A stretch of 64,000 nt of DNA from Terebella lapidaria (Eukaryota; Annelida; Polychaeta; Terebellida; Terebellidae): assembly GCA_949152475.1 (NCBI GenBank), contig OX424564.1:28456165-28520164 (forward strand), written 5' to 3'. How positions within the stretch are numbered: the stretch's first letter is position 1; each line of letters begins with the position of its first letter. Both the position numbers and the translations under genes were made by a program. Below are positions 12,081 through 55,657 of the stretch, piece by piece. The notes under the pieces are model-generated. The model was not told the origin of the DNA. It searched no databases and saw only the letters and a list, made by a program, of their open reading frames with translations.

Positions 12081-12804
12081 AGTTTAAATGGACCGATCTA
12101 CTGTCTCTTGTTAGCATCCGCTGTATTTTATGATTCTGTTCCGCCACTACGCGTCAGAGGACCCGATACATTTACAGTACCCTGCCTCACAGAATCAGTG
12201 CCATGATTCAAAACTAAGGATATCCAACGAAATGTTGAATGATCGTTATATTTCTTCATGTAGATAGACAGATGTCTACACTTCTGTGTATATGTAGGCC
12301 ATTGTTGCAATTACCTATTTTGATGAATAAATATCGTTTACCATAATGCCAGTGTAATTTAATATGCATTGTAAAAGGGTCAGTATTCATCTCCAGGGAG
12401 TGTATATGTGATGATACGGGACATTGACCATATGGGAGTGATTAAATGATATACCTTTTTTGTTTTTGTGCTGGCTTGTTACTAATATGCTCCGTTTTGG
12501 GCTACATGTGAGGTTAACAGGCCTTAGAAATTTGTAAGATCATATTTTCCACGAGTATACATGTATTTGTTTCCCCCCAAACGAGTTATCATCCTTACAC
12601 CAAAATTGGACCCAGCGAGAAGCAGTAGGCCTTAAATAAATAAATATTAAGAAATATAATATATAAATATAATAAATAATCATGAACAGAATTTTGATAT
12701 CGAAGTCAAATTGGTTGACTACTAGTTGTTTCAATACAGTACATAATTCATCATATACATGAAAGGGTGTCTTGAAAACAATATGCGTCAGGCATTTGAA
12801 TTCT
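12081..12804. other. No gene recognised
   Basis: AT-rich sequence with no supported feature. Confidence 0.4.
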
Positions 12805-12935
12805 GAGGTGAAATTTCCCTGATTGCAATCGATATAGTCAATAGTAAGCTCATCAGAAAACCTATTTTAAGCGTATCAACAAAGTCGTTATGTGGAGGCA
12901 AAAATTCACCATTCTATCGTATTCGCAGTTTTGAT
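12805..12935 (-). repeat. Inverted third copy of the repeat found at 36.8 kb and 40.9 kb
   Basis: The reverse complement matches 36840-36970 and 40930-41050. Shared blocks include TGCGAATACGAT, CGACTTTGTTGAT, ATAGGTTTTCTGA and GAGCTTA. Confidence 0.7.
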
Positions 12936-14029
12936 TCGCAATTATGGTACTTTTAATATCCCCTGTACATATGAAGTTGATAGTCTATTATGACAGTTGA
13001 TGACTGTAATCGATTGCTTTGCTTATCCAAGAATTGACAATCAGTTCCATCTGGACAACATGCCTCCAAACGTGTTGCAAACCACGTCAGACACTATGTA
13101 CTCAGGAACACCCACACATACAGATACGATATCAAATTGTTTGAAATGGCCTATTTGAGGAAGAAGTTTAGTCCAGTAAGGTCATTGGACTGAGTCAGTC
13201 AGATTGTGGGCCTGTTACCTGCCAGACTCATCGATTAGTTTGTTAGGTTTCCCAATTCAAAATGTACATGCATTTGCGGGCATGTATTTGATTGAAAATA
13301 TGCAATTCGTCAGATTTGTATCCAATCGTGTGCTTTGAATTCACAATAAAGCACGGCAATGAAATAATTATTATTTTTTCATGTGAACAGGCTCCTCATA
13401 ATATTGTACGTGATTAGGTTTGGCTACTTATCTCACCGACAGTATCTGAAATTGGGTGTTCGCAATGTTCTTTAGTTTCCTGTCACATGACTCAAAATCA
13501 GCAATAGTTGTTAAAATGTCATTGGTTTCGAAACAAGCGAATAGTCATGATGAAAAACATCTTACATGATACAATGGAGCGGACTGACTATCTATCACTA
13601 CACTATGGTGACTGGTTAATGCTGAATTCAACTCGTGTCATGTGTGAATATATAATTTACTTTTTAAATTTAAACTTGATTTATTTTACAACAATTGACG
13701 AACAAGCATATGCTTATATTAACATCTCTTGTTGACTCGGATCTTGACGTAAGGGTGGTCGTTATCGTGGGAGGAAACCAGAAAACCTGGTGAAAACCCA
13801 CTTTGCATATATTTACTTCGCAGCCGCCACCCATTATCTGGTGGCCACCACATGATCATATGTATGAACCTCATGTTTCGGGTGAAAACACATTCTGATA
13901 TTGATGAATAAATTAAAATGACGTTCATTTGTTAAATCGGTTAGTGTCATTATAAGCCTAAAAAGTAGTAACATTGTTGACTCTGTCTGTTAATCTGAGG
14001 TTTTCTTGTGTTTTATTGATGCACTCATT
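12936..14029. other. No gene recognised
   Basis: AT-rich sequence upstream of the trefoil gene. A short segment at 13546-13600 (ATGAAAAACATCTTACATGA and following) recurs at about 15410 inside intron 2 of the trefoil gene. Confidence 0.4.
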
Positions 14030-14205
14030 ACATACTCCTCTCCAACAATTCTTCTGTCCAAATAGTTTGACGAAACATATCCTTTAACGTGTTACATGTG
14101 CTGTAAACACATGTTCGAATAACGATTATGTGATTATTGCACGGTATAGACAAACCCAGATAGTGGTCGCTCGTCAGTACTTTGTGTGGCCGTGAAGCTT
14201 CCAAG
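14030..14205 (+). promoter_or_regulatory. Conserved proximal promoter/5' UTR of trefoil gene A
   Basis: This stretch aligns with the region upstream of gene B (34425-34600, minus strand). The best shared block is TTTGACGAAACATATC followed by TTTAACGTG, with flanking CTCATTACA, CTCCTCTCCA and CCAAATA also shared. Conservation exceeds that of the introns, suggesting shared control elements or a conserved leader. No TATA box or transcription start can be fixed by eye. Confidence 0.5.
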
Positions 14206-16702
14206 ATGATTGTAACCGTATTTTGTGTCAGTATACTGGCTTTTGCATCGCTGACTTTTTGCGCAGGTGAGTGTTCATACATGTCTCTGGAGTAGAGAGC
14301 AGTAAATGTACTTTCCAGATAGATACAGATTACTATATATCGCCGGGAGAAGCTCATTGTTTAAATGACGGAAGAAAAAAAAATTAAATATTTAAAAAAA
14401 GTTGTTCATACCACCTAACCAAGCAGGCCTAAATCTACTCATCAATGAACCAAGTACCTATTGTTTCGCACACTATTTTACACAAAATATCAAACATAAA
14501 AAAAAAACAAATGTAATAAAATGCTTGTAAGAACTTCTGGTGTAGAAGTGTGTAATTTTTTGTGTGATCAGAAATCAAGAAAACAAATTATCTATCTCGA
14601 GACTTTTTGAACAACACAAATAAATTATGACTATTATGATGCTTCACCATCTTTTGAACAATATCGTCGCAACAAAAACTCGTCTGAGGGCATATGTTGG
14701 TGATATTGTAAAACCAGGGTTCAATCTGGATCAATAGTCTCACTTTTCGATTTCACTGGACAGAGGACCCCTGTGACTTGACAGAATGGAACGGACAGCC
14801 ATGTGGTGAAAACGACATCGGTGAAGCTGCATGTGTTTGGATGGGCTGCTGTTGGGATGAAGTCAATTCATTATGTTGTCAAAAACGTGAGTAATCACTT
14901 AAATACACCCAGAACTAGGTAGGGATAGATTGCCCACTATTTCGATTTTTGCAATAGAAGTCTGGAATTCGGTGGAAAGTTTGCCGTTTGAATATCGGAT
15001 GAAGCATGCAAAGTTATGATTCGACATCATTAAGCATCGCAAAATATTGACAAATAACGGTGTAAACAAGTTAGAAAAATCAGAGTATTGTTCAGCTACT
15101 CTGGAAAGCATTCTGGTGTAACTTCACGCACTCCACTTGGAAGTCGAACGCCATTTCTCCAGCTTGATAATTTCGGCCATATCATGGTTTTATAAGAACA
15201 AACAGCAATACACCTGAATGGTTTTACAAGAACAAAAAGTTCTTGTGAAACCATGAATAAAATCCGATAATGATGAAGTAGTCTCATGGTTGGGTCCGAA
15301 TACAACGTCGTGCATTTGCTTAATTTTTTCAGTCAAACAATCCGTGTGGGTGGATTAAATAACATAAATCCATCCCCTGGTTCAAATTTTCTACAAACTT
15401 ATATTCATGATGAAAAAACATCTTACATGATCCAATAAAACAGACAGCCCATCTATCTGAACACTTGTCTGTCAGTGTGTGGATTGAATACACATAAATC
15501 CATCAATGTGTGACTGAAAGAATACACGTAAATCCACCCTCTGGTTCAAATTTGCTACAAAAATATTCCTCTCCTAATAGATACAAATGTGACAAAATTC
15601 CTGAATATTTTTGTGAAGCTGAAAGGTATGGTTCCATAACTTGGCAAAGGGAGTCAAACGGCAAATTTCGGTCTTTCATCACAAAAGTTGAAAAAGTTTG
15701 TACTCTATCCCAATGTTGAATTTCAGCCCAAAACGGGATCTCGGCAATTTGAGCATATTCGATGATTTGGTCCTGTTTAGATCTGCTGCAAAACCGAGTA
15801 AATGCACAAAATTAAATACAGCCCTGGAAATTCAATGACAGGGCAAAATTTATCATTGGGGTAGATTGCCGAGGTGAAGTATGCCAAATTGGAGTAGATT
15901 CCAAGGTGAAGTGCGCCAAGTTATAGAAAGATACCGTTTAGCATCGCAAAAATATATATAAGCAACAAACAGTATAAACGAGTTAATCAAGGAACAGTCC
16001 CCTCATTGCATACATCACTGTCATGTGTGACTACTGTATTCCATTCTATATACCGACATTCCTGCATACTTGCGTGTGTATGTTCTACACAGGGGATGTA
16101 TGCAACGCGGCACCGAATAATTGTGCAGTCACGATTTTGACTCCATGCACCTATGAGCCTGGTCAGACATGTGGGATCGGTGAGATGACAGAGAGGCGGG
16201 AATGTCCTGCAGATTCTGGCAATATCGAAGAAGTCACCAGAGACTGCTGTATCACCAAGTGTCCATGTGAGTTAATAATATCTGACAGCATAAAATACTT
16301 TCTTATGAGGAGCAATGTACATATTTCAACGCTCATTATTCATTCACTTTCTGTGAAACAATTATCTTGTTTGTAGAGGTAGATTTAAAACGCTGTCTTC
16401 TATGCTCCATTTGCATCGATTTCAAGCTGGAGACATCTGTGATGTGCCTATTCTTGAGAGGGAGGATTGTGAACACACTACCAATGGACCCGTCGCCACT
16501 CAAGCGGATTGTGATGACCTGCATTGTTGCTGGGACAGCAGCGAAGCAAAATGCTACATGCCAGGTCAACCATCTCAGATGTTTTTAGGAATACATCATA
16601 CTAGCATCATATACACCATATAGGATATATACGGTTCTCTAATGTGTTCTTTTGGCTAATGTGTTCTTTTGTGTTATTCCAGCTCCCCTTCCAGCACTGT
16701 AA
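14206..16702 (+). CDS. Secreted trefoil / TSR-like / trefoil protein, gene A
   Basis: Five coding exons: 14206-14266, 14764-14886, 16093-16266, 16427-16564 and 16683-16702, giving 171 residues. All introns are GT-AG and phase 1; the weakest donor follows exon 4 (GTCAAC). Residues 1-20 are a signal peptide with a hydrophobic core ending FCA. Residues 21-61 form trefoil 1 (Cys24, 34, 44, 49, 50, 58) containing [10 protein letters not shown]; it also has an extra Cys59. Residues 62-119 have eight Cys, with [16 protein letters not shown] recalling the CSxxCGxG signature of thrombospondin type-1 repeats. Residues 120-165 form trefoil 2 (Cys124, 134, 148, 153, 154, 162). The tail is APLPAL. Trefoil proteins are protease-resistant secreted factors of mucus and epithelia; that role is inferred here. 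The exon map is independently confirmed by the identical map of gene B. Confidence 0.87.
15179..15256. repeat. Small hairpin in intron 2 of gene A
   Basis: TGGTTTTACAAGAAC, a five-base loop and GTTCTTGTGAAACCA form a near-perfect 15-bp stem (about 15216-15250). A partial copy of the arm lies just upstream. Confidence 0.65.
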
Positions 16703-16740
16703 GTTAGCTGACAAATATTAGCATTTGAGTGAGTGGAATT

Positions 16741-16742
16741 AC

Positions 16743-16789
<47 letters not shown>

Positions 16790-16791
16790 TT
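16741..16791. repeat. (AAT)n microsatellite
   Basis: About 16 uninterrupted AAT units lie 40 bp past the stop codon of gene A. A degraded counterpart lies at the matching place downstream of gene B (about 26105-26150). Confidence 0.95.
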
Positions 16792-16829
16792 GCAGAACTT
16801 GCGACCTGGTTTATCCTGAATGTGAAAGT

Positions 16830-16985
16830 CCTTGATGGACCCAGGACATTTGACAAGGCACAACTATGGAACTGACACTGATGATATCAGATGCATTTGT
16901 ATGAGGCACTCCACACAATAACCATCTCATTCTGACTACACTCACACTGGGTTTACTTGTATCAAAATATGTATCATCCAGCTCC
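16830..16985. repeat. 3'-flank segment shared with gene B and with 45.5 kb
   Basis: This sequence matches, in inverted orientation, 25908-26100 downstream of gene B. About 95 bp also match 45515-45612 beside a Tc1-like relic (shared blocks GACAAGGCAC, ATGAGGCACTCCACACAA and AACCATCTCAT). It marks the far end of the trefoil duplication. Confidence 0.75.
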
Positions 16986-16990
16986 ATGTT

Positions 16991-18157
16991 AAGAAATTTA
17001 AGCAAATCAATTAATAATCATATGTACTTCTCTGACATGTTTTAACTATGAAAAAATGTAAGAATCTATAGGTAATTCATTTCAAAACCTAGATTGTGAT
17101 GCGCTCATGTCAAAAACACACGTTGTACATTAAAAACTTACTTGGGAAGTGTATATATTTTTAAGAGTTCACATTGACTGTATAGATTAACTGGGAATAT
17201 GTATTGATTGTGTATGGTTTACTTCAATAGAGGTGTCTATCTTTAAACGATTTTCCTTTCACGCATGTGGAATATATACTCAAACGGGGTTAATATACTT
17301 TGTTATATTGCAATGATATGTGTATCAACGGCTACTACATAACATTTCCAGTTTACTGTTAATTTTCATGTTCTGTTCTCAATGTTTTGGCTGTGCTATT
17401 CCTAAACATAATAAGTTCCATGCAGTTAAAACTGCCACTGGATGAGATTTATTCATGTGGAATTTAGTGTCAAAATTTGCAATGATATCCTAATGAAATC
17501 AAACCAGTCTGTCATGTTACTCACCATGACATATTCAATGGCTTTAGGTTTGTGGTTTTATGCGAGTGAAAAAAAAATGCTTACAAGGATATGTTTCATA
17601 TACATAGATAGGAACATTTGGCCAGTGTAGATCTTGATACCAAAAAGCATTTAGTAGTATGGAGAGATTGACATCTAAAGAATATAGCGAGTTAGGAAGG
17701 CATTGAGCATTGAACATGTAAGGTGGTCATGCGAGTAATAATCATATTTGTGGTGTGTACTTAAATGGGCCGAATAAAATGTTGTGAATAATATAATCTT
17801 TTGTGTTCGGTACCATTCACAATAATGTCCACACAAATAATGTCAGTCATGTATTCAAAGTGGCAAATGACGATAGGGACTATGTTAGAAATCAGCTCAA
17901 GTGCTAGAGAGGGTTAGCGAACAAATGTATGGATCCAAGCTGTCAAAATCCAAATTTATTGTTAGGAACTGTACTACATGTGCTACCATACTGGACTATT
18001 TCGAGTGACATACCTGGACGAAAGGAAATTGCATGTGTGCATGAAAGTGCCACTGAAACCTCGTTGCGTTCGGTGAAGTAAACCATAGAAGAAGAACGTG
18101 TGGTTTGGACTTGCGATCTGTAGCATAATGCTACACAAAATAAATGATCTGAAAGGT
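16991..18157. other. Intergenic, nothing recognised
   Basis: AT-rich, with no repeat or gene I can support. It may contain the 3' UTR of gene A, but no clear polyadenylation site was assigned. Confidence 0.4.
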
Positions 18158-18404
18158 TCATATTATCTCCTTGAGAAAAAAATATCTCACATCAGTTCTC
18201 GTGACCTGGTTCGAATGCCAATCGACTTCAACTCTGCCAGTGGCCCCCCAACTCGCATCATCTGACGTGGTGACGTTTTCCCAACAAGCCGCTGTGTTCC
18301 AGACATCAAACAATCGGGAAGATGATGCATTGTCTGGTTCCTCTTGCATCACGATCCCACTGTTAGGATCGATTCGCGATGATGCGTCACTACAAGGTAC
18401 GTAG
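18158..18404. other. Possible exon of unknown gene (both strands open)
   Basis: A stretch of near 50 percent GC in AT-rich surroundings is open on the plus strand (18171-18404) and on the minus strand (18352-18158). On the plus strand CAAG|GTACGT near 18396 could be a splice donor. No family motif is visible and there is no partner exon, so it may equally be a piece of a GC-rich transposon. Confidence 0.25.
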
Positions 18405-18502
18405 TACGAGAACGCACTACTGCACTCGACTCAGCCAGTGAGTGATTCGGTCATGTTGAACTAGAGGAAGTTGATTCAAGTATCAGTAATACAAACCGGC
18501 AA

Positions 18503-20368
18503 TAGCTAAGTCACATTTGCACCAGTGCCTACGCCGATGAGAAAACGAAAAGGCTGAAATTTGGCCATTTCTGTCGATCACCCACCGAGTGCGGGAAGAT
18601 CATCCCTGACCATCGCACAACAATCGGACATCATAGACACGTCGGTGGAGGCATCGGAAGAAAATAACGCAAAGTTATTTTTATGCGGCGACCGGTGGAA
18701 AAAATGACATCGGTATTGAATCGCTAGCATGTTTGCCGGCGAACGGCCAGAGCCCCTTCAGATGTCCACCAGGTGCCGATGGGATCAACCAAATTTTTCG
18801 GCCGACCAATGTGGCTAGCTCACCAGGCAATCAACGCAGGGTATCCTGCTGGGCGCCGATGAATGTTCGGAAGGTGCCCTTCAGATAATGTACATATCAG
18901 ACGGTAACCGAACAGGTATCAGTAGGGTATCAAGCAGACATGGGGTAATCGTAATCAAACCCTGATTATGATTACGATTACATAATCGTAATCGATTACA
19001 TTTGAAAATTTCATAATGTATTCATAATCGTGATCGAATACTTGGTAAAAGTAATCGTAATCATGATTACATGATTACATCAATTGAAATATAAGTGAAC
19101 ATTTTCTGTATTCGTGGAAGTTAAGAATTAAGGTATGTCATAGGGGACATTTATAATATTTTGTTGCTTTTCACTCATGAAATCCACACATGTCATTATG
19201 ACAAAAAGACTTTACAACCACTTATTATATGACTTAAAAAACTACACAGATTTTCTGCTTCGTGTACAGACGTATATATCAAATTATGAACAATGTATTC
19301 CCAAGTTTCCACTGAATGAAATTTATGACCGGTCGACCACTGTGTTACATTGATACTTGGTTTGCATTGACTGCAGGATGTATTAATTACTCAATAAGCT
19401 ATAACTTGTCTTACATTGTTATATCTGAACATCAAAGAACCCTCAGGGTGGTCGTGTACAAATCACCTTCCGCAAGCAGAGATAGGTATCAACACTTGAC
19501 AATCACAGGGTGTTCGGCTGCCTCTCTTGATTATTCCAGTACCGCCCCGCCTTCACCCCCTGCCCCCCCCCCCCCCTCCCCTGATCTCTCCTCCAATTCC
19601 GCATTCGGTTGGCTCCCACTCCTCACCTCCTCACACCCAATAAAACTTGTTAGGCAGATAATCCATTACACTGCCATTGTGTAAACGCGATTCGTCCAAC
19701 AAAGGAAAGTCTGTTGTGTTTGTTGTTATTAGTAGCCTAGCTGTACTATCTTAGTGTCATGGCATACGATCAAAACGGCGGATGGTTCCAAGGTCAGCTT
19801 CAGTCTTGCTATATTACAGCAGCTTTTGTTTTGAAAAAAAAATTCCAACAAATATATCAAAGCAATTCCCCAAAAAATATTTCTTACTTTGATAGTTTTT
19901 CTCTCGATGGTATATTTTTTTGCTCAAACTCTAGTCAGTGCTGACACCTACTTGTGTTTTCACTCTACATCTAATATGAAAAGAGTAATCATGATTGTAA
20001 TCATGATTACAATGGTTAAGTAATCGTAATTGTAATCGATTACATCTATATTTGCCTGTAATCGTAATCATAATTTAATCATCAAATATGTGAGTAATCG
20101 TAATTGATTACATTGACCCTGTAATCGCCGAATGTCTGGTATCAAGCGATCTCCGGTAGGGCATCGTTGGTTGGTCAGTCTTTTTTTAAATTCTTGAAAT
20201 TTGGACAGAAATGGTGAAGACACACGGTAGTACCTGACTATAGCGGTCACCGGCAGACAATGCCTGGTGGTTTCATGACCACTCGAAATATATGGGAAAG
20301 ATGACTGACAAACTATCACCGGCGGCCGGAACATCGATGAATACCATGGTTCAAAATGTGCCCTATTT
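18503..20368. mobile_element. GC-rich TIR element, copy 1 (split by a hAT insertion)
   Basis: The left end near 18507 contains CTAAGTCACATTTGCACC and the right end near 20368 a degenerate inverse of it (GGTTCAAAATGTG). Internal blocks such as ACACGTCGGTGGAGGCATC and GCGGCGACCGGTGG match copy 2 at 41828-42300, and ACCGGCGGCCGGAACATCGA matches 44606. Without the insertion at 18935-20138 the element is about 660 bp. No transposase is present. The superfamily is not clear to me. Confidence 0.75.
18935..20138. mobile_element. hAT-type non-autonomous element (1204 bp) with 8-bp target duplication
   Basis: GTATCAAG flanks the element at 18927-18934 and 20139-20146. The ends are CAGACATGGGG and, inverted, CAGACATTCGG. 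Subterminal regions on both sides are dense in GTAATCGTAATC and GATTAC motifs (18945-19080 and 19985-20125), the repeated subterminal binding-site pattern expected for hAT transposons. The interior has no transposase frame; a plus-strand frame at 19316-19684 includes a proline run from a poly-C tract and is probably accidental. The element sits inside another transposon, so it is the younger insertion. Confidence 0.85.
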
Positions 20369-21185
20369 GGGTTTTGTTCAGTGATTCGAGGAGTTGTCAA
20401 TATACCAATTAAAACATTGGTATATACCAATTTACCAATTAAAACTGACATTTTGTGTGAGGATATACCAATTAAAACTGACATTACAGATATAAAGGCA
20501 ACCATACCCCCTAGTGCTTTTTGACGCGAGAGGGCTGAAAAGCGATTTAGGGTATCTTCGAATAAGTGGTGTAAACAGAAAGTGCATCCCTATATTTTCA
20601 ATGTTAACATTTGATTTCCAAGTAAGGACACCCTGTGACTTCCGAAAAAAAATGTTTTGGGCAGGGGTTGGCGGCATGGGGGACCCGCTAGCCCGTGGCT
20701 TACAAGAAGTCACTCAAGATCAACGTCTGCCGACCTGCTTAAGAATGCCAAGAGATTCCTGTGCATGTTGGTGCATGTCGACTGCAGAGTGATGGACAGG
20801 TTAAACATTTCAACATAACTCTACTGAACATCCTCTATGCGTTCGTTTTTTGCTTATGTGGTCAATCATGGAAATGATATATATGTCTGATTGCCATACC
20901 TCTTCTGAATGATATGGATCAAATTTCATGAGACTACCGCGATTCAAGCAGATGTTATTACCGAAAATGTGTTTTTCTGGGATTTCCGTGACCTGGACCT
21001 TTGTGGTCTTTTGAAATTTCGGAAATTTGACGTTTATGACGTCACTGTCACGTCAGTGTACGTCATAGCGCCAAAAATAAGATATCATTGGAATCAGGGA
21101 CTCAAAACCTTTCTAACGATATACTACTCTAACGATATACTACTATAGTAAAATCTATAGCACCATGCACAGGCAATGCACAAAA
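20369..21185. other. No gene; short direct repeats at 20400-20500
   Basis: ATACCAATTAAAAC recurs three times (about 20401, 20430 and 20464) with TGACATT following. The rest shows no recognisable feature, apart from a short TATACTACTCTAACGA duplication near 21119. Confidence 0.45.
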
Positions 21186-21225
21186 TGCGGTAACCTATCT
21201 TAGCCCTTGGGCTAATTTTTTTCGA
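21186..21225. repeat. Terminal piece of the GGTCA-rich element family
   Basis: GGTAACCTATCTTAGCCCTT followed by GGGCTAATTTTTT is identical to the segment at 43987-44018, which lies at the end of the larger element there. Confidence 0.75.
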
Positions 21226-21446
21226 GAAATAAATTAAAATAAGCATTTTTGTATTATGTAAATACATTATAACACACACTTCAGTTTCTACAACATTCTG
21301 ATTCAGAAACACACTGTTCACCACTTACTTTCGGTTGTTTGCTGGTGGAGGTTGAGGCTGTCCTCTTGCTGCAAATGGGGGGGGGGGGTGTATATGCTTC
21401 TCTGCCGAGATACCCTGTGGAGGATACCTTGCTGACGACACTCTAG

Positions 21447-22420
21447 CGCTTCCGTGGTGGTTGATTCTCTGGCGTTCGCTTCATTTGTGGTTGCTTTCCA
21501 GATGGCTGCTGGCTTGACGGCTGTGTCCAGGATGGTTGCTTGAGAGGGGTTTGCTTTAATGGAGGATATTCAGGATCTTCAAATCGTTTTGACCCGGATT
21601 GTTGGTCATATTTGGCATCAGGAAACTGGCGTCCAATGGACGCCGTTTTGTACTGATCATACGACTGGCGACAGCCTTCCTTATCAAGGTCCTAGGTTCC
21701 TCACTGCAAGAGTAGGATATCAAAAGACTCTACTCATCGGCAATTGAAATCCACTTGAGGGTCGGAATGGTGATCTCAAAAATCACCTTCCATTCTAGTA
21801 TCTTATTGCAAATCTCCCTAATCTTTCAGCTAATACATAGTAAACTTACACTGGTTTGATAGGCAGTAAGGGCCATCTGTCCAGGAAAGGCAAAGGACTT
21901 CCTTCGTCTGGGTAGCGGCAACTGCAACCGCGACAACCGAGTATATTCACATCTCAAAACTAATGCAACCATCAGTAAATATTGATACAATTTTCAACTT
22001 TCCAAATGATACAGTCGAACTTTATTTTTCGATGAGCCTGATGAAGATTTACTAGAATATGATGATGAACGAGAGCGGGATGAATACGAACTTGGGAAAC
22101 GATAATTGTCATTCAGCAATGACAATTTTCAGCAATATAGTAATTAGTTTTCAAACAAACATCATAACGTTCACCAATATTATGAGCAATATCATAATGT
22201 TTGCCAATACCATATTACCTTTTATCCAAAATCATAATGGTAACCAATATTCAACCATCATCATAATGTTCGCCAATATCATGATGGTCATCAAAATGCA
22301 CGCATGTGTCCCACCCTGATGAGTAGGATGAGGAGTAACTTCCTGACCGCGACTTCTTGACCGACTACGAGATGATGACTTTTTTCCGCCGGACTGGAGA
22401 CCTTGGGGAGAGAGGGGTGT
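21447..22420 (-). pseudogene. RS-rich gene fragments, copy 1
   Basis: On the minus strand, exon-like segments appear in order. At about 22350-22315 one encodes KSRSGSYSSSYSS. At 22090-22033 the next encodes SYSSRSRSSSYSSKSSS. At 21907-21850 one encodes RRKSFAFPGQMALTAYQT and ends before GTAAGT. At 21703-21447, after TCTTGCAG, the last encodes RKAVASRMISTKRRPLD in one frame and a glutamine/proline-rich stretch in another. The same pieces recur at 60.3-61.6 kb. Arg-Ser dipeptides are typical of RS domains of splicing-related proteins. The donor of the second segment is lost and phases do not join cleanly, so I treat it as a decayed or incompletely resolved copy. The parent gene is not identified. 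Confidence 0.4.
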
Positions 22421-22729
22421 ATATCTGGTAAAGCTGTTACATTTATTCCTTATGCAGGTCTAGTACAGAACAAACGATCCATCCAAATAAATACTGTTCT
22501 ATTTTTTAATTACAAATGGAATGATTATTTAATGATATATTATTTTCTATACAGCTTCCCGTGTTATCAACATACTCGAGCAAATAGATATGTCTAGGTA
22601 TTCCAAAACCATACTGTCACCTACGGTGGCTCATTACCGCCAATTACGTTCGTGTGTTTCTCACCGTATTTATAATCACCACCTCATAATATTCAACGCG
22701 TTTATAATTTCCACCCCGTTCATATTTAT

Positions 22730-24905
22730 CACCTCAGAATTATCACAGCGCTTATAATTTTGATTTTACGCATTGTACGTGACATATGACCTTGATATTT
22801 ACCAATCAAGGTCATCTTTGTGGACTTCAATGTCACCATACTGTATGCTGAATGGAACTTTCTATATGTTCGTGATACAAACATATAATTCCTATTACCA
22901 AGTATTTTGTCTGTGGAGGCCAATCTACACAATTCAGGTCAGGCAAGACTTTGATATTTTGCCTTCAAGGTCGTCTAAGGTCATCAAGTTCAAGGTCACC
23001 AATAGATGTGTGCCATATATGTATGACTTCTTCTAAGCTCACAATATAATCCCAACCTCTAGGTGCAAGACGCCACGTGGCCTCAGTGGCCATGTTACAC
23101 ACCTCAGCGGCCACGTTACACATTCCATGTCACACAGTATCAGTCAAGGGTCAATGGTCAAGTTCAAGGTCATTACGTTTTCCATGTTCGACTTCCCATA
23201 TGCTCATAATGCAACCATAAGCTCCATCTGCAATAATTTCGTCTGTATCGGTAAATCTGGGCATTTTTTTTTCTTACCCAAAAACGACTGTTTTGACCTT
23301 TCATGGTCATCGAAGGTCGAATTCAAAGTCACCACACAAATCGTCATATATGACTTTCTATTTGAAAGTGCCAATAATATCTGAGCTCTATCTTCAGGCT
23401 TTCTAAGAGTACAGATCTAGCATCTCCAATTATGAAGGAAAAAAGTGCCGAAAATTCGTTTACAATTTTACAACGTCCACAAAGGGGGGAAATTTTTTTC
23501 GGCCTAGAAATGGCCCAAATGGAGAGTAATGCGATTTGGGGCAATATATTTTTTTCGCCGACCCATCAAAAATTCAAAATGGCCACCACAGGCAGACCGG
23601 CGATTCAAGGGCAACTAAACTTATGGCCGTCAAAGTCCAAAATTGAGCGTTTTTTCGTCAAAATCGGCTGACATTTTGAGAAAAATGCGAAAATCGAAAA
23701 ACTATAAAAGGGCTTTCCTGGAAATATTTTTAGGTATTTTTGTGCAAAATTTCATTCGACCATAAACTTTAAAGATGAAATTAACCCAAAGGCAAAAAAA
23801 GGTTATCGGAAAAATGTACACTGTTAAGCTCTCAAAGTTTGAAATGGTAATTTTTCGACAACACGTGCCCAAGGGGAACATTGTTTTCTATATGTTCACA
23901 ATTGATTCCTAAATTGTAAAGTCGATAAGGGGAAAAATTTTAGCCATTCCGGGCACTAACCTTGAAAATGAGTTTAAAGTTCAAGTCGAAGGTCATCAGA
24001 ATTTTTGACACGTATCATTTCCTATATGTCCACAATTGATTCCCAAGCTGTAAAGTCGATAATAAGCGAAAAATTAGCCATTTTGTGCTCTGACCTCGAA
24101 ACGAGGTCATTTGTCAAATTCAAGGTCTTGTCAATAATCTGCATACATCATTTCCCAAACGTTCATAATTGATTCCTGGGCTGAAAAGTCGATAATAAAC
24201 GAGGAATTGGACATTTTGTCCTGTGACCTAGAAAATCAGGTCAAAGGTCAAATTCAAGGTCATGACAATATTCAGTATATACCTTTTCATATATGTTCAC
24301 AATCGATTCCTAAGCTGTAAAGTGGATAATAAGCGAGTATTAGCCACTTTGTCCTGTGACCTTGAAAATTAGGACAAAGGTCAAATCCAAGTTCAAATTC
24401 AAGGTCGCAAGAATATTCAGCATTTATCATTTCCTATATGTACACAATTGATTCCTGATTATTAATCTAAATATTATTTGAGATATTCGGTAAAATGTTC
24501 CATTATAAAGCATAGGGAATTGGGAAAGTCCCATTTGGGCCGAGTTTGGGCCAAAATGGCTCACTTATAGTTATCAAGGGCAAAGAAACTTATACACATC
24601 TCACGGGTACATAATGAAGAATGCTATGCATATGATCATATTTTCAGGAAATGACCATCAAAATCCGAATTTGGCCATTTTTTGTCAAAGATGACCGCCA
24701 TTTTGGAAAAATTGCGAAAATCAAGTGACTGAAAATTACCTGCCTCTTACCTGAAATATTTTCAGGCATTTTGTGCAAAATTTCAGAAAGATTCGACCAT
24801 AGACTTTGAAGATAAATTTGTTTACAGACGGACGGACGGACGACGGACGAAACGCCATGGCAATAAGTTATCGGACCATAGCTCCGGTAACCTAAAAAAA
24901 CACCC
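22730..24905. repeat. GGTCA-rich satellite-bearing element, copy at 22.7-24.9 kb
   Basis: It consists of repeated blocks of about 120-130 bp carrying AAGGTCAAATTCAAGGTC, CACAATTGATTCCTAAGCTG and TAAAGTCGATAATAAGCGA, joined to a second type of block with TGGCCATTTT repeats. It ends at about 24894 with CGGACGGACGGACGACGGAC followed by CTCCGGTAACCT. A perfect DR1 motif (AGGTCAAAGGTCA) lies at 24238-24250. No protein is encoded. Confidence 0.8.
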
Positions 24906-25904
24906 TCGGACAAAAGTTGGAATTTTCCATCCACTTTTCTCCATCATGATGAGAGCTAACACAACTGTACTCCTGGAACAACGGGAGGTAAACCCCGAGA
25001 CACTTGCACTTTTAAATGGGGAGTCCTACGCGACGTTTCGTGTGATGATCTTGAATTTAACCTTTGATGACTGAAAAGTAAAAATCGCCATTTTGGTCTA
25101 AAAAGTACCATATTGCACACTTTTTTTTCTCGAAAACTGATCAGTTTGAGATTTGTTTTTCAGAATATGCTAATTCGGGTACTTGATATTGCATCCCAAA
25201 AGAGATCACATTAATTTCATCATAAGGCATGTGTTGGTTGTTATATAGCCCTTGAGCTACTTTTACCATAAACTATATTTCCATTTGTCACTTAAAATAC
25301 ATGCATACATTTTGTGAATGTTGACAAACAAAAAAGATCATGCACAACATTGATGCTTTCACAACCTTTTATTTGGCCTAATTTTGTACACACCACAATA
25401 TAATTATTATGTTTTCTCTACAGCCTTGATTTGCTTGATGTCCATCACATTAGATATCAATGTTTCTCAATTACTGAATGCTATTTGATTTCAAGATATA
25501 GCTGATCAATTGTTCCCATGAAACATTATTATAAGCATTTCTATAATGTAGCATAAAACTAAACAACTGGTAGAGAACAATTTGTAAATTGATAATTCAC
25601 ATAGCAGCCTCCAAAAATATGACAATATTCATATATTTACATATATGCATACAGTAAGGTTACATATTGAATCATCACCCTTGAGTCAACTTTATCAGGA
25701 CACCATTGCGAATTTTGACACCAAATGCCGCAGGGATCTCTTTCAGTGAAAATTTTTTTCATATGGAATATATTATTATTGGGAATAGCAAAGCCAAAAC
25801 ATTGGGGCAGAATATGATAAACATAATCAAACAAATGGATATTTTATGTAGTAGCACGTAACACACATATCATATTTTATCCCACATATATAGTTGAAAC
25901 ATTT
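24906..25904. other. No gene recognised
   Basis: AT-rich intergenic sequence between the GGTCA-rich repeat and the downstream flank of gene B. It possibly includes gene B's 3' UTR. Confidence 0.4.
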
Positions 25905-26150
25905 CAGTGAAGAACATAATTATGGAGCTGAATGAAACAAATTCCAGAAGAAGTAAATCTGGGTTGGGGCTGGTGAGAATAATATGGTTGTTGCGTGGAG
26001 AACAGAAACAAATGCAGTTATTGTGTCAGTTCCATAGTCGTGTTCTGTCATGTGTACTGGATCCATCACGGACTTTCACATTCAGGATAAACGAGGTTGC
26101 AGGTTCTGCAATAATTATAATATTATTATTTTTATGATCAATATTATTAG
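25905..26150. repeat. Inverted counterpart of the gene A 3' flank
   Basis: The reverse complement aligns with 16740-16990, including the degraded AAT microsatellite and the CATCCAGCTCC block. Similarity stops near 25905, giving the boundary of the inverted duplication. Confidence 0.75.
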
Positions 26151-26249
26151 TAATAGATTTAGTTGAAGTAGTGTGAATAGTAGTTGTCGTAGTTGTTCTC
26201 TTATTTTGGGGGGAAAAATCTTAACAAACAATTGGTAATGAATGTTAAC

Positions 26250-29200
26250 TCACAGTGCTGGAAAGGGTACTGGAAGAAGAGAAAAGTAAAAAAAAACATA
26301 TCACAAGGAATATTTTTTTTATTAATCTCGAACATGTTTTTTTTTTCATTTTAGTGTGCACATAGTGCGATTTCACATAAACATAATATGTATTGTTTTC
26401 GAAGAAATACCAGTGCAGATATGTGAACAGTATATATCATATATCGAACTAATTTCGTTGTGTTATATGCCTAAGAAAATTCTCACATGGCATGTAACAA
26501 GCAGAAATCATGTTGTTCCAGCAGCAGTGAAGGGCATCGCAATCCGTTTCCGAGAGGACGAACCCATTGCTAGGATGCCAACAAATCTCCCTCTCAGCGA
26601 TAGGAACGGCACAGATATCTCCAGCTTTAATGCAAATGAAATAACATAAGTGTTATCCAGCGTATACAAACAAGAAACTTCCACATGTGAATGGTTTTAC
26701 TGAACGAGAAAAAGCTGTACATTGCTCATCATGAGGAAGTATTTCCTGATGTTGGATATTATTAACTCACATGGACACTTGGTTGTGCAACAGTCTCTAG
26801 TAACTTGTGTGACAGTACCGGAACCCGAGGGACACTCCCAAGACTCTGTCATCTCACCGATCCCACATGTCTGACCAGGCTCATAGGTGCACGGAGTCAG
26901 AATCGTGACTGTACAACCAGGCGGTGCCGCATTGCAAACATCCCCTGTGTGGCGGAACATACTATTATAAGTATTTCTGTTTTGTACATATCTATCATCA
27001 CAAAAATTTCTTTATCAGAAAAAAAAAACATGCGCTGACTTGAGCGAAAATTTCAACGGATGGCAAATAAAACCGAAGTTATAACCAATGTTTTTGATAA
27101 TGGAAACGCGAAGAGACTTGCAGGCAAGTTTTTTCTTCGATCTGAGAGGCAGGGAGAGAGACGGCGAGATGGGGAGACAGATATATTGGTACTCGTTCAT
27201 AGTATGACAACTTGGAGCGTTGTGGTATAACATCATGACTGGTGGTTCAGAATTAGATGAAAGTTTTCTCTTTTTTGCATGTAATCATCATCGTATGGCC
27301 CTGAGGTCGAATATCCTGTCCATTCATATTCACGGTCATTTGTAAGCGAGATGCACTGGCACACACTCATTAGCGTCCTGTGAGGACCATCTGGGTCACT
27401 GATAAATCGCGTCAGATTTCAAAAATTCGTACAGATGTCTACTTCTCATGCCGTTAGTGTCAATTTTGGGAAAGGTAGTAAAGCTCACCTTCAATTCAGG
27501 AGACGATACTTTCCTCGCAGTATTTTGTAATATATTATAGAACAAACACAGCTCAGACAAATTTGTCTGGGTTACAAATATGGCTGCTATGTTATACTAT
27601 CCAATTGGATCTAATAACTAATCTTCAAGATCAGATCTGCTGTCATGGGTGTATACAAGTGAGGACTCACGTTTTTCCCAGCATTGTGAACTGACTTCAT
27701 CCCAACAGCAGCCCATCCAGACACATGCTGCTTCACCGATATCGCTTGCACCACATAACGGTACGCTCGCTCCTGTCAAGTCACAGGGGTCCTCTGTGGG
27801 GCGTAAAATTGAAAAAATGGGTGTACGCATAAACATTTGGCCCTGGCTTCACAATATCAAAAGATGGTGCAAACATCTTAACTATTTTATTATCTTATAG
27901 TGATAGTGATAGTTTATTCACAATTCACATTATAATACATATCAATAAGTAAAAACATCAGATATATAGATAGACATCGAGAATCATTAGGTCAGATGGC
28001 CTTACAGATAAGGATTAGATAACGAATTAGTATGTGAATCGTGGGACCAGTGTAGTAATATATTACTGTCTTCCCACTGGCCCCTGAGAAAAAAGGAAAA
28101 TATGCCTTGATAAATCTTGCAGTTTGCGTGTGCGCCCGGCAGGATGACGATGCATGGGAGGAGGCCATTGTCAAAATAATTGCATGTTCATAAAAATACT
28201 ATGAGGTACAGATCGGCCGGACGAACAGGTCGCCGAAACGAGTTCTTTTAGTGAATATTTCCACTCATGAGTGAGTGGTATTAGGGAATTCGACACTGAT
28301 ATGTAGTTGCTCATATACAATGTGTGGAAAAGGATTTTTTAAAAAAGAATAGTTTTGTATATCCACATTGAAACAGCATATATGGAGGAAAACCAATATC
28401 CCATGCATTATTCAAAAACTGGCCAGAGCTGTGAGTTGATAGGCAGCAATAGCTTTCATCATTGAGTGAGCGGTATCAAGAGGATAGATACTCTATATGC
28501 CCAGCAGTGGAGTTTGTATGCTCAGCGCCGCGAGCAATCAGAACACCCGGATCTTGAACACGTAACTTGTGCCAGATATGTGTTTATCATTATTGATTTC
28601 AATGTTTTCTTTACGGCCGGTTTACGTTCTATAGATCTACTACTTGATTGGACTGCCCATTTGTTCCATATAACGGGGAAGTGAAAGACTGGAAGATTGC
28701 GTGATAATTGCCTATTTGTTACTGGTATATACATAAATTCGGATTGTCTCGTAGTATAAGTGTTCTGAATATTTCGGCTAAGGTTGAACATTGTAGAAAA
28801 TGACTCCGGGAGATGGCCCGATATTTGATCAAATACGAATAATACAATCTGATATTCATATAAATCAGATACTTTTAGAATACAATTACGTTTGAACAGT
28901 GGATCGGTGTGACTGTTGTATTTTGATTTAGTTATGATCCTGGTTGCCCGTTTTTGAAGTATCTCTGTACGTGAGAAATATGATCTGGGCGCATTACCCC
29001 ATGCAGGTAGGCCGTACGACAGGTGTGAATGCACTAATGAGAAATAAAGTGTTTGGAGACAATTTCGAGGAAGGACATGTTTTGCTTGATTGATTACAAA
29101 CAATCACGCGATATTTTCTTATTAATATTCAATATATGTTGTTGCCAAGATAGAAATTCGTCGATATAAATACCCAGGAATTTAGCCGATTTTTCCTCGC

Positions 29201-32200
29201 AGTCGTTTCCTATACGGTTCAATACAGTATTACCGATTGATATTGCATGTTCACTCATGTGCCCCCTCCATTTGCTTTGGACGAATTACGATATATTTGG
29301 TTTTATTGGCATTGAGTGAGAGTTTATTAGAGCAGAACCATTGGTATAAGCCATTTAATTCACCGTTTATTGTTGAGTGCAGGGTAAATAGGTCTCGGTG
29401 GGAGGAAAACAGTGTCGTGTCATCGGCAAAGGACAAAATGTTTGCATTAGATGATTTGCCTATGTCGTTCACATAGATAAGATACAAGATAGGCCCTAAG
29501 ATAGACCCCTTGGGGACACCACAGCGTATGTCGGCGAGGGTGTTTCGAGGGTTATTTCGAGGGTGTTTCGGGGTGAAGTACCGCAATAATCCCCTCTTCT
29601 CGTCACCCAGGGGTTTATTCAGTGATGCGTGCAGCTTAAAGCAAACTAATCCCACAAGAGCGATTTCCAGTCGACACTCCACAGAGATTTAGGCCAAACA
29701 AAATTATAAACCAGTTTATAGTGTCTAACTGATTTACCACTATTACTGTTCATTGTATTACAATCTCCGTGTGTGACTTATGCAAGGATTTTTGTTTCAT
29801 CGGGTCTCAGTAGCTCAATGGTCCAGTGTTCACCTCACACATGTTTTTGGCAAGAACTTGTAGTGTGTCACCGTCGAGATTTGAGTCGTTTGTTATAATT
29901 CGGATTCAAATTAGAAGAATTTGATATGCGAAAGCATGTTTATATTTATATATGAAACGAATCATGTTCTATACACGTCGGGAGGAGTAGTCTGTTTTAT
30001 ATTCACATAATGTTTCATTGGAAGTACAGACAGCTATATGCTATTCCTACGATAAATGTTGTATATCAGAGCAGTAAATGTCATTCGAATTAAAAAGCGC
30101 CGATCAGCGTGTTTTTGATCCTTTTTTAGGGGGGGGGGACTTTTGGGGATCACTGATTTCTTTGGTCTCACGTTACATATGTATAGGCCTACTGACGAAT
30201 GGATATCGATATAGACAAATCCATATTTTAGGAGTGATTCATGAATGATACTTACAAAATCAGTGTCATGAACGGTCAAATTCGATGAGTGATAAACCTA
30301 TAGGCCTAATGATAGCCCTGTTAAAACCACAGACACATAACTTTAATGACCGCAGTGTCATTGATTTTGCTCCAGGTTACACTTTTCACACACAAATCAT
30401 GAAACTGGCCGATTGCTTACTAGCCAAACACTGACGATATTACCTAAGGAGGATGCCTGTGGCATTTTGTTACAATTCACCCATTATAACAGAACCCGGC
30501 TATACAATGGATCCGAAAGTCTAAGACTGAGAAACACGAGAGTCGTACAATCATGAAAATAGAAATGTCGTAAGAAATGTGTTTATCACGGGCGGTCTAT
30601 AATCGATGTCTTCTAAACGCTGGTACGCTGGTATACTGGTACAAGCATTATGAGGCTCATTGAGGCATACACGAAATGAGCAGTATTGTTGAGTTAATGC
30701 ACCTTGCAATGCTTGTACCAGCATACCAGTGCACCAGCGTTTAGAAGACATCGGTCTATAATAGTGAATCCCCTGTCTTTACTTTATAGACAAGTATCTC
30801 AAAATCACACCAGAAGGTTTATTCTGGTGAAATCGACAAATTATACCAACAAACTTAAATACATATGTCACCAACTCGTGTTACATTGGTGAAACACATG
30901 AAAGTAACTGGTTGCAATGGAACTGATGTTGACCAATATACAATCACCAACCATATTTCACCATTGTCATGTTAATTTTCGCACTCCATTATTTTTCCCC
31001 TGCAAATTAATTTAGCGTGTTTCGCCCAATATTAATAAAGTATTCTGATGTTGCACGATTTCTGAATGTCTGATGTTATTTGTGCATACAAAGATGAGAG
31101 TGACTGAAAGAGCAAATAACAGATACCTTAGGTGAAATATATCATATTTTAGCAATAAAATTTACAAAAGGTGATATGTTCAGGGTTGTCTAAGCCTGTA
31201 GGGCCCAATCTGTTAATACTACTCACCCATTTGATGTATACCATATTTAATCAATCTGGCACATTTTTAATCTTCATTGAATTTAGAAGAAAAAGTAAGC
31301 TGCGCTACATGCGCCCAAGTATCAAATCCTGCGCCTTCCTCTATATTCAATAAGGATTGAAAAGGTGCGAGACGGATTAAATGGTATGTTTTCATTGGAC
31401 GAGTAGTATTAAGGAATAATGTACGGTATTTGGGCCGACTTTAGTATGCTTCCCATGAACACTGCGCGACAACGGGAAACATCTCATTTAATCCGTCTGA
31501 CACCCTTTTAATCCTGATTAGAGATAAAAGAAAATTCAGTATAGCATACCTCTGCTAGAGTTCGGTTCTATTTTGTGTGGCCTAACAGGCGCTGATTAAT
31601 GAATCTGAGTTATATTCGCCACGCTTCAATGCGCAAAAACCCCTACTCACTTGACCGCGGTACTTCACCCCGAAGTACCCCCGAAACACCCTCGAAATAA
31701 CCCCGACACGAAAAAAGTCTATTGAGTTCGATTTGTTAAATAACTGCGAAACCAGTCATTGGCCACCCCGCGAATTCCATATATGTATAATTTTTTCAGC
31801 AGTATTTCATGATCAATGACGTCGAATGCTTCTGACAGGTCACAGAAAACAGCTAGTGTATATTCAGGATTGTCAAGTTGTAGTCCTGTGTGTCTACGAA
31901 AGCTTGAATTTGTCACAATTTGACACATTTTTTGTGTTGTTCAAAACGTCTTGAAAAAGATAAGTTGTTTTCTGGATTCCTAATCACGGATATTGCAAGT
32001 TATACCCTAGAAGATGTGCATAGCATTATATGGATACATCACTTCAAAACAAAAAGTAATTGGTTCACTATATCGGCGAATATTGATGACTGAATGAATA
32101 AGTGTCTATAGCTATGTTTGGAACGTCGAAAAAGACGATGATTGAGATAAAAATAAATCTGAAGTGCTTGGAAAATAATTGGTATGCAACCAGTATCCTT

Positions 32201-34424
32201 TGAAGTCAATAGTTCAACCAATATTTTTGTGTGTGGAACTATGTATTTAAACATCACTGTTATTTGCACATATTCTTTTTCAGATCAATTAACATTACAA
32301 ATTGAATAAATATTTCATGGCCATAGTCGAATGCGACTCTCATGATATTCACATTGCACAATGATGAAGTCCCCCCCCCCTCCGACATCATTATCTTCGT
32401 CGTCATATGTTGTCTCGGGCGTGTTTGAACAGTTAGAATCCGTACAGTTACAGGTAAACCTCATGCTATGGCAGTTACTTTGGCATTTGCATCTAATGAT
32501 AACCAGCAAGTTTTCACGCCCAAAAAGAAAGTCTGTTTTAAGAGAGATTAACCCCTGCCAAGTGTCTTTCCATCACCATACCATTGCTTCAGAAGGGGTC
32601 AATTCTGTGATTCTTTCCATCCTTGGACCTGCAGGTAGGCTTTCGATCTGTGGTATTTACTGATGATGATAGCGGTTGATACGCAGCTGAAGACACGTGT
32701 GCAAAGGTACGCTGTATGCTGTAACTCTTGCTAGTGGATGTGGTTAAGGGTAACTAGCTTCACCGTTGCAGCCAAGAGAGGCTGCCAACTATCCATCGAC
32801 TGACCTGTGCTGGGCAAGAAGACTTGTGGATTATCTCCAATGGTGGAAACACCAACTTTGTGTGATCATGAACTATAAACCTGGGAAAACATAATCGTGG
32901 GTTTGTTCTGAACCCAAACTTGTCAAATTTATCACAGACCCGTGGTCTGACACCCCTAAGTCAACCAATCGTGGTATTCAAAGATTCCCGAGGCTGCTGC
33001 AGAGAAACCATTTATTGAGGTAACCGATGTAGTAAAACACCACGCTGGTTCGCAAGATTTCTTGCACCAACATGGTGAATACCAATACCCAAGGGGAAGT
33101 AGATAGACAGAATGGTATAGCACAAACTGCCAAACCCAACCCATGTATGCAAACCTGTTGGTGAGATACCGGTGGGATGTGTTTTGGAATATGAAATAAA
33201 GCACCTGTTAGATCCAGCAACGCTGCCTAAGCATTCACCGCTAGATCGATCTGTACGAAATCGGCAGTCTCCATTGTGAGTTTCACTATCAACTCAACTA
33301 GATGGCCAATCGCGGATCGCAGTTCCACATCTATCACCTCAGACAAGACTCAGCCGGAGTTGTATTGGTATTGAAGCTGTTCCCGTACTTACTGGTCCAT
33401 ACTGCAGCCAATCCTGGGTGGTTTTGATCAGCACTGGTGGCCAAATGCAGTGCTGATTATTGCCTACCTGCGCCATTGGCACGAACACCGATCAATGCAT
33501 GACATATGATGGAGGGCTTCCTTAGACGGCTTGTCCACAAAATCCCCACTGAGAAGGCTCGTACGGCTTGGTGAGCTTGCCACTCGGCATTATCTCTCTT
33601 ATTCTTTGGTGCCTCCTTTCGCCCACACTTGAACGCCTGATGCAAATCCATGCTCAAAGGCAGTTGCTGGTATGTAGAAACATGGGGCTTCGGGATCACA
33701 CAGGACACGGGTCCACAGAGCTACTAGAGTAGACGTGGGGGAAAGGAATGGAGGGGATCTGTATGAATAAACCATGAGCCCTGCGAAAAAAAATGTATCA
33801 CTCGACGAATCAACTGAAAACAGGTACATTCTCGAAACTTCTCATCACTGTGTGGATAAAACAGGCCAGTTCATATTGAGATATATTTTGTGAATTGTAT
33901 ATCTTGATGTAACACTTTGTTTATTGGTTGTTGTTTTTTTTTCCAAGCTAGTCAAGTGTTTTGTTGTAATAAAATTTCAAAGTTGCGAATTCCTCATCTG
34001 TGTGTTCTTCAATTCTAGTAATCGCAGAACGTAACAGTATAGACACCTTATTTATTCAGTTATCATCATTTTCCTGAGATTTAGTGAAATATTAAATGTT
34101 TGGTGATAATGGCACTAATTTGCATGAATTCCATATTTCCCCCACCTGGATTCCCCAAGACTTTTTATCAGTCATAGAGGACATTTTAGTGAAAACATAA
34201 ATTGTTTTATAGTTTTATATTTACTTGGTACTTGGCTCCGTGGTATGAACGACTTATTTAAATATTTAATTTAAATTTCCCCCATTGTTCACATAGTGAG
34301 CTTCTTTTGCTATATCTGCTCTGATTACTGCTCTCCACGTCATATACATATTGGAAAACTTACCTGCGCAAAAAATCAGTGGAGCAAAAGCCAGTATACT
34401 GATACAGAATGCAGTTACAACCAT
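26250..34424 (-). CDS. Secreted trefoil / TSR-like / trefoil protein, gene B
   Basis: Five exons on the minus strand: 34424-34364, 27793-27671, 26944-26771, 26624-26487 and 26269-26250, giving 171 residues and ending in TGA. Lengths equal those of gene A exon by exon, and all splice sites are GT-AG with good donors (GTAAGT, GTGAGT, GTGAGT, GTGAGA). The signal peptide core is [13 protein letters not shown]. Trefoil 1 (residues 21-61) has the six standard cysteines without the extra one of gene A. The TSR-like module (62-119) keeps all eight Cys. Trefoil 2 (120-165) keeps all six Cys but is the most diverged part. By hand, identity to A is 15/20, 29/41, 46/58 and 28/46 for exons 1 to 4. Intron 1 is 6.57 kb, full of transposons; the others are 726, 146 and 217 nt. 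There are no stops or frameshifts, so it is probably functional. Confidence 0.85.
30604..30753. mobile_element. Fold-back MITE (150 bp) with 9-bp target duplication
   Basis: Arms of about 46 bp (30604-30648 and 30706-30753) start CGATGTCTTCTAAACGCTGG and end with its complement. GTCTATAAT lies directly outside both ends (30595-30603 and 30754-30762). A 9-bp duplication with long inverted repeats fits Mutator-like MITEs. It has no coding capacity. Confidence 0.8.
31247..31522. repeat. Nested MITE copy flanked by direct repeats
   Basis: A second, diverged copy of the 125-bp MITE lies at 31312-31436. On both sides (about 31247-31290 and 31478-31522) is a TTTAATC...AATCTGGCAC/GTCTGACACCC...TTTTTAATC segment in direct orientation. 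This segment is partly complementary to the interior of the MITE, so the locus can fold extensively. Confidence 0.6.
31931..34363. other. 5' part of intron 1 of gene B, no gene recognised
   Basis: AT-rich intronic sequence. Plus-strand (32361-32663) and minus-strand frames (33204-32956, 33708-33457) have no recognisable domain. The region 32880-33720 has higher GC and may be a decayed retroelement, but no motif supports this. Confidence 0.35.
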
Positions 34425-34600
34425 CTTGCCAGTTCGTGACCACAAAATGTACTGAAGAGTTGCCGATGAGTTCGTCTGTGCCTCACAATAATTAAATGAT
34501 CATTATTGAAGCAGGTGTTTACACGTTCAAAGATATGTTTCGTCAAAATAATTATTTGGAAACAAATATTTCTGGAGAGGATTCTGTAATGAGTACATAA
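34425..34600 (-). promoter_or_regulatory. Conserved proximal promoter/5' UTR of trefoil gene B
   Basis: Read on the minus strand, it shares TTTTGACGAAACATATC followed by AACGTGT, plus CTCATTACA and CCTCTCCA, with the region before gene A in the same order and spacing. The similarity fades near 34600-34660, so the duplicated unit probably begins there. Confidence 0.5.
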
Positions 34601-40484: not shown

Positions 40485-40594
40485 CTGTTTTCTTTAGTTC
40501 TAGTTGAGAAGTTGGGTGTATTGTTTCATTGCTTTTATTGTTTGTAAATTGAAATGTACATGCGTACGAAATGAATCATATATATATATGAACG

Positions 40595-55626: not shown

Positions 55627-55657
55627 AGGAGTCTGAAATGGATCAATTTGTTGCTGA

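Follow-up and report, generated by a model that had tools for sequence, protein, structure and literature searches.

What becomes of a small gene once the segment carrying it has been copied in inverted orientation, and whether the convergent arrangement obtained in this way has regulatory consequences of its own, are the questions raised by a locus of the polychaete Terebella lapidaria. The stretch of DNA analysed here (the window; 64,000 nt of contig OX424564.1) contains two trefoil genes, A and B, directed towards each other by their 3′ ends. For mammals, PMC3146476 describes the TFF genes as a tandem 5′-TFF1-TFF2-TFF3-3′, ascribed to duplication and exon shuffling, and gives the cysteine spacing of their trefoil domain as CX9-10CX9CX4CCX10C; in PMC7221086, binding of a mucin disaccharide is attributed to Asp/Asn (Asp20 in TFF3) and Trp (Trp47 in TFF3). 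In the annelid pair, the arrangement of exons, the divergence of coding and non-coding parts, the 3′ ends and the predicted products were considered together. The reading that appears very probable is that of an inverted duplication, both copies of which have been kept functional under moderate purifying selection and behave as independent units.

Results

Gene models of the two copies

The coding span of gene A covers positions 14206-16835 (+) and that of gene B 34424-26066 (-). Both consist of coding exons of the same lengths (61/123/174/138/16/40 nt, stop included; Table 1) and encode 183 residues each, with neither internal stops nor coding indels. The coding sequences are identical at 443 of 552 nt (80%, stop included) and the proteins at 133 of 183 residues (73%). 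All ten introns have GT...AG ends; as follows from the exon lengths, introns 1-4 are in phase 1 and intron 5 is in phase 2. The first-pass annotation had described a five-exon gene with equal exon lengths and phase 1 throughout: the equality of lengths holds, the number of coding exons is six, and uniformity of phase is contradicted by intron 5. What had been overlooked is probably the 16-nt microexon, which is required because gene B stops directly after exon 4 without it, while gene A shifts to a different frame. In the frame containing the microexon, exon 6 differs between the copies by three synonymous changes and one nonsynonymous change. The remaining features attributed to the pair at first sight, i.e. 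open frames over 183 codons in both copies, retention of domain cysteines (24 of the 24 in B are also Cys in A) and convergent orientation with collinear exons (A on the plus and B on the minus strand), were all confirmed. The exon structure itself should be regarded as predicted, being deduced from two copies only.

Table 1. Positions of the predicted gene parts, duplication arms and related fragments in the window
Feature	Position	Strand	Remarks
Gene A exon 1	14206..14266	+	61 nt; start codon and hydrophobic N-terminus; donor CAG/GTGAGT
Gene A exon 2	14764..14886	+	123 nt; trefoil domain 1
Gene A exon 3	16093..16266	+	174 nt; 8-Cys domain, weakly TSP1-like
Gene A exon 4	16427..16564	+	138 nt; trefoil domain 2; weak donor CAG/GTCAAC
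Gene A exon 5	16683..16698	+	16-nt microexon
Gene A exon 6	16796..16835	+	40 nt; C-terminal Cys tail and stop codon
Gene A candidate poly(A) signal AATAAA	17773..17778	+	aligned with gene B signal
Gene B exon 1	34364..34424	-	61 nt
Gene B exon 2	27671..27793	-	123 nt; trefoil domain 1
Gene B exon 3	26771..26944	-	174 nt; 8-Cys domain
Gene B exon 4	26487..26624	-	138 nt; trefoil domain 2
Gene B exon 5	26254..26269	-	16-nt microexon
Gene B exon 6	26066..26105	-	40 nt; C-terminal tail and stop codon
Gene B candidate poly(A) signal AATAAA	25368..25373	-	only AATAAA/ATTAAA at most 1.4 kb from the stop
A-side arm, gene and flanks	12367..17906	+	chain of inverted matches
B-side arm, enlarged by insertions	25246..37259	-	chain of inverted matches
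Fragment C, further copy of 5′ flank only	38567..41367	- (B orientation)	split by reverse-transcriptase element
Fragment D, gene A 3′UTR remnant	45518..45610	+	83.3% identity, 96 columns

Extent and divergence of the inverted duplication

Common origin of the two copies is evident from tblastn with the protein of one copy against the other (E down to 7e-26 for a single exon), from the equal exons and from the inverted-repeat pairs of at least 40 nt found in the interval of 12-37 kb, eight of which join the regions of A and B (the ninth is a local hairpin). The duplication initially proposed is thus real, and the extent of 14030-34600 assigned to it turned out to be too narrow, since upstream of both genes homology continues as far as ~12.37 kb in the case of A and ~37.26 kb in that of B. 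Most of the greater length of the B arm comes from intron 1, which takes 6570 nt there versus 497 nt in gene A. For introns 1 and 2, which differ much in size, only short matches between the copies were obtained. Introns 3, 4 and 5 can be aligned (65-67% identity) with K80 of 0.445, 0.430 and 0.473 and with three, four and one indel events, respectively (eight in total), while K80 is 0.327 in the proximal 5′ flank and 0.426 at the start of the 3′UTR.

These values also bear on the reliability of the assembly. Heterozygous genome assemblies can produce inverted near-duplicates, and two haplotypes of one gene might accordingly have been set side by side; however, 80% identity of the coding sequences, K80 of 0.43-0.47 with only 65-67% identity in introns 3-5 and a 13-fold difference in the length of intron 1 exceed by far the usual allelic level of divergence, so that an artefact of this kind was rejected as extremely improbable.

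A run of 48 nt in exon 3 (16146-16193) is identical in A and B; when codons were permuted 20000 times, a run of this length arose in 87 cases for the entire coding sequence and in 133 cases within exons 1-3. The divergence of exon 4 exceeds that of exons 1-3 (p 0.036 for synonymous and 0.006 for nonsynonymous differences, from rounded counts); both tests were chosen after looking at the data, and their p values are not corrected for multiple testing. The run may be a possible conversion tract or a sign of strong constraint, and local gene conversion is not claimed.

As a separate observation, translated pieces of intron 1 of gene B (27900-31920) resemble by eye a minus-strand non-LTR-like reverse-transcriptase element, which is split by an insert of ~2.1 kb with inverted ends of ~50 bp (29535-29584 and 31657-31705). 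The search for a target-site duplication of this element gave a single 8-base match (27918 and 31913), possible by chance.

Selection on the two copies

As a measure of selection, the first-pass annotation had proposed dN/dS between the two coding sequences, which amounts to 0.49 by maximum likelihood (ML) and 0.35 by NG86. The Biopython methods gave dN and dS of 0.174 and 0.480 (NG86), 0.174 and 0.413 (LWL85), 0.209 and 0.295 (YN00) and 0.186 and 0.373 (ML); omega was below 1 by all four, with 0.71 for YN00, and by a separate ML fit. Our own NG86 computation yielded omega of 0.352 with a bootstrap range (2.5-97.5%) of 0.22-0.57, and the GY94 fit yielded 0.488, rejecting omega of 1 (2dlnL 9.53), with the profile crossing 3.84 at 0.3-0.4 and 0.7-0.8 (an interval of ~0.31-0.77 as read off); such pairwise values are averages over both lineages and are compatible with recent relaxation in one copy. 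Synonymous divergence (dS of 0.39 by ML or 0.49 by NG86) may be compared with K80 of introns 3-5 given above. With the codons of the 24 shared Cys removed, omega by NG86 equals 0.473, implying constraint beyond the cysteines.

It might be argued that one of the copies is a young pseudogene, selected for a long time and by now either unexpressed or misspliced. The weakest donor of the pair, that of intron 4 in gene A, would fit such a fate: it has six of nine consensus matches versus seven of nine in its B counterpart (within the window, 16% of all GT sites score at least 6/9), and exon 4 left unspliced would continue for 19 codons beyond the donor to a stop. The length of intron 1 in gene B, 6.6 kb with inserted elements, and omega being only moderately below 1 can be read in the same direction. 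Nevertheless, the intact state of both frames, of all ten GT/AG introns and of all 24 shared cysteines is unlike the outcome of long neutral decay as simulated with B as a stand-in ancestor and with an assumed indel rate of 0 or 0.1 per substitution. An open frame was kept in ~14, 6 and 3% of 4000 runs at K of 0.10, 0.15 and 0.20 (at K of 0.2, in 3.5% without and in 2.8% with indels), and the frame together with the splice sites and all cysteines in none of 4000 runs under each of the six settings. The simulation speaks against a long period of neutral decay in A or B but has no bearing on a recent loss, and we regard the pseudogene explanation as unlikely.

The preferred reading, that both copies have been retained by selection as suggested initially, is favoured by omega below 1, by the absence of coding indels against eight indels in the introns, by the full set of shared cysteines and by the simulations. 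Throughout most of their history, purifying selection has probably acted on both copies, and its strength appears moderate (ML omega of 0.49).

The 3′ ends and the convergent arrangement

The aligned candidate poly(A) signals lie in one block of homology, in which 17736-17906 matches 25409-25246; their sequence contexts are GGCCGAATAAAATGTTGTGAA for the AATAAA of gene A at 17773 and GGCCAAATAAAAGGTTGTGAA for that of gene B at 25373. Gene A has two further candidates, ATTAAA at 17129 and AATAAA at 18139; with the second of them, the gap would be 7.2 kb. In place of the 9.5 kb between the 3′ ends reported initially, the distance is 9.2 kb between the stop codons and 7.6 kb between the aligned poly(A) signals.

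Convergence of the two genes had been thought capable of generating overlapping antisense transcripts. Its functional version assumes that overlapping transcripts or a read-through hairpin would let the copies regulate each other by antisense or siRNA, and the complementary arms, including the identical run in exon 3, could provide the necessary pairing. With 7.6 kb separating the aligned poly(A) candidates, however, overlap of the transcripts would need long read-through, and the expected antisense transcripts thus find no support; for the same reason this regulation was set aside as the main reading and seems very improbable. Analysis of the window sequence revealed nothing suggesting mutual regulation of A and B.

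Domain architecture of the predicted proteins

The order predicted for both products is signal peptide, trefoil domain, a Cys-rich domain of 57 residues, a second trefoil domain and a Cys tail; a hydrophobic N-terminus that by eye looks like a signal peptide makes secretion of A and B likely. All 24 Cys of B align with Cys in A, and the additional C59 of A corresponds to W in B. Both proteins pass the cut-off of Pfam PF00088 Trefoil (21 bits) with 35.2 bits for A and 22.5 bits for B, with two stretches in either protein when E values as high as 1 (A) or 10 (B) are admitted. Exon 2 scores 22.8 bits in A (positions 1-33 of the 43 in the profile) and 21.4 bits in B (positions 12-33 of 43), and the best Trefoil stretch for exon 4 of B comprises residues 124-164 of the protein. 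Six aligned Cys are present in each of the four trefoil domains, with a seventh in domain 1 of A, and are spaced, according to their positions, as CX9CX9CX4CCX7C in domain 1 and CX9CX13CX4CCX7C in domain 2. For the AF2 model of trefoil 2 of A, all nine structural matches listed are trefoil-bearing proteins, TFF3 and TFF1 among them.

In the TFF3 numbering, Asp20 and Trp47 presumably correspond to the positions before the second and the sixth Cys, respectively. Trp before the sixth Cys is found in none of the four domains (domain 1 of B has Trp after it), and Asp/Asn before the second Cys in one of the four (domain 2 of A). A lectin function of TFF type was rejected for the predicted domains because the lectin Trp is missing in all of them.

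The domain encoded by exon 3, with its eight Cys, resembles the TSP1 repeat (TSR) weakly. By eye, the likeness lies in C-x7-C-G-x-G followed by C, then TRDCC and the last C, while the tryptophans of the TSR are missing, and B also lacks the arginines close to its third Cys. The AF2 model (pLDDT 75) has three strands, and in Foldseek its top two rows were TSR3 of BAI1 with 28-31% identity (best E 0.55, below significance); the VIA rows include TSRs of CCN3, properdin and semaphorin-5A, also not significant, and unrelated Nudix and Rib folds stood beside or above the TSRs in fold searches (equal or higher by Z). Pfam returned no family, TSP1 included, for exon 3 of A and B at E up to 10, in a search where HMMER filters discard most matches above E ~0.1, and the profile of exon 3 against PDB sequences produced one match only, a chance one to a ribosomal protein chain (E 1.5).

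Searches for relatives of the whole proteins were negative within their scopes. The protein search with A gave six candidates, none at E 0.001, and that with the A+B alignment gave 108, none at E 10; none of 14 pattern matches in viral contigs was confirmed by tblastn; PDB sequences contained no match to A or A+B, and NCBIfam none to protein A, the only query used there. Among literature titles and abstract openings, a scope by which absence is not shown, no invertebrate trefoil protein with this architecture was encountered.

Remnants of further copies and other features of the window

Fragment C consists of two pieces (38567-38659 and 40592-41367); the element between them matches RVT_1 at 39419-39757, and no target-site duplication of at least 6 bases was found for it. 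Since K80 of the 5′ flank is 0.143 between B and C versus 0.337 between A and B (0.356 between A and C), the split of C and B should be later than that of A and B. Fragment D extends to a slightly longer stretch with 81.6% identity over 103 sites, and one of its frames is open through 41 codons. No match of A or B was detected by tblastn at 35-62 kb with E up to 10, and no exon was seen near fragment D. Both fragments appear to be what is left of additional copies or of incomplete duplications; fragment C could alternatively be a flank-only duplication which never included the gene. The presence of such flank fragments suggests gene turnover at the locus.

Several other features were observed in the window. 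Tandem arrays with repeats of 133-134 bp occupy 23884-24395 and 42746-43896 in mutually opposite orientation, and a satellite at 10046-10702 and 10831-10953 has a period of ~23 bp with a TTACAGCGTAATAACGCTCTAA-like unit and matches itself on both strands. Long minus-strand frames at 53883-58808 look by eye like a tyrosine-recombinase (DIRS-like) retroelement, their sole profile support being a weak Phage_int_SAM_1 match (E 0.011, below the cut-off). A minus-strand frame at 1872-2342, RecQ-like by eye, scores 25.1 bits for DEAD/DEAH helicase, just below the Pfam cut-off of 26.

Discussion

The course of events that would account for the present state of the locus may be outlined as follows. A segment with a single small gene, encoding a secreted trefoil protein rich in disulfides, would have been duplicated in inverted orientation. 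Neither copy would have lost its function: as they diverged, purifying selection of moderate strength would have acted on both, most strongly on the cysteine scaffold, with introns and flanks left to drift and to take up insertions. Genes A and B, both equipped with a 5′ flank and a candidate poly(A) signal of their own, may be considered as independent of each other, and presumably both are expressed. Further duplications at the locus would have left only fragments C and D. The products, predicted to be secreted, probably act extracellularly, be it in mucus, in the lining of the gut or in a coat around cells, by means of stable modules with disulfide bonds.

With TFF1-TFF3 the proteins share small size, predicted secretion, trefoil domains and origin of a local cluster by duplication, and TFF1 and TFF3 are the best predicted-fold matches of trefoil 2 of A, though weak ones. 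In contrast to them, A and B carry an 8-Cys domain between two trefoils and a Cys tail, depart from the TFF spacing (7 instead of 10 residues before the last Cys), lack the lectin Trp and are convergent, whereas the TFF cluster is tandem. The trefoil domain of ZP1 (8bqu) is also a structural match of trefoil 2 of A, but no ZP domain accompanies it: the whole proteins give Trefoil only in Pfam. One may speculate, with more doubt than conviction, that A and B belong to a lineage-specific secreted family composed of a trefoil, a diverged TSP1-type repeat, a second trefoil and a Cys tail, which would have lost the mucin-lectin site, acquired another extracellular binding role and grown by repeated inverted and direct local duplication.

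As it stands, the pair looks like the product of ordinary local duplication, the secreted trefoil gene concerned being known in kind and represented here by new members. What it offers is a pair of delimited gene models, with a microexon that may escape automated annotation, as well as an example of small secreted genes being gained and lost locally; no new principle is involved. The finding would gain more weight should trefoil / TSP1-like / trefoil turn out to define a distinct invertebrate family of wide occurrence.
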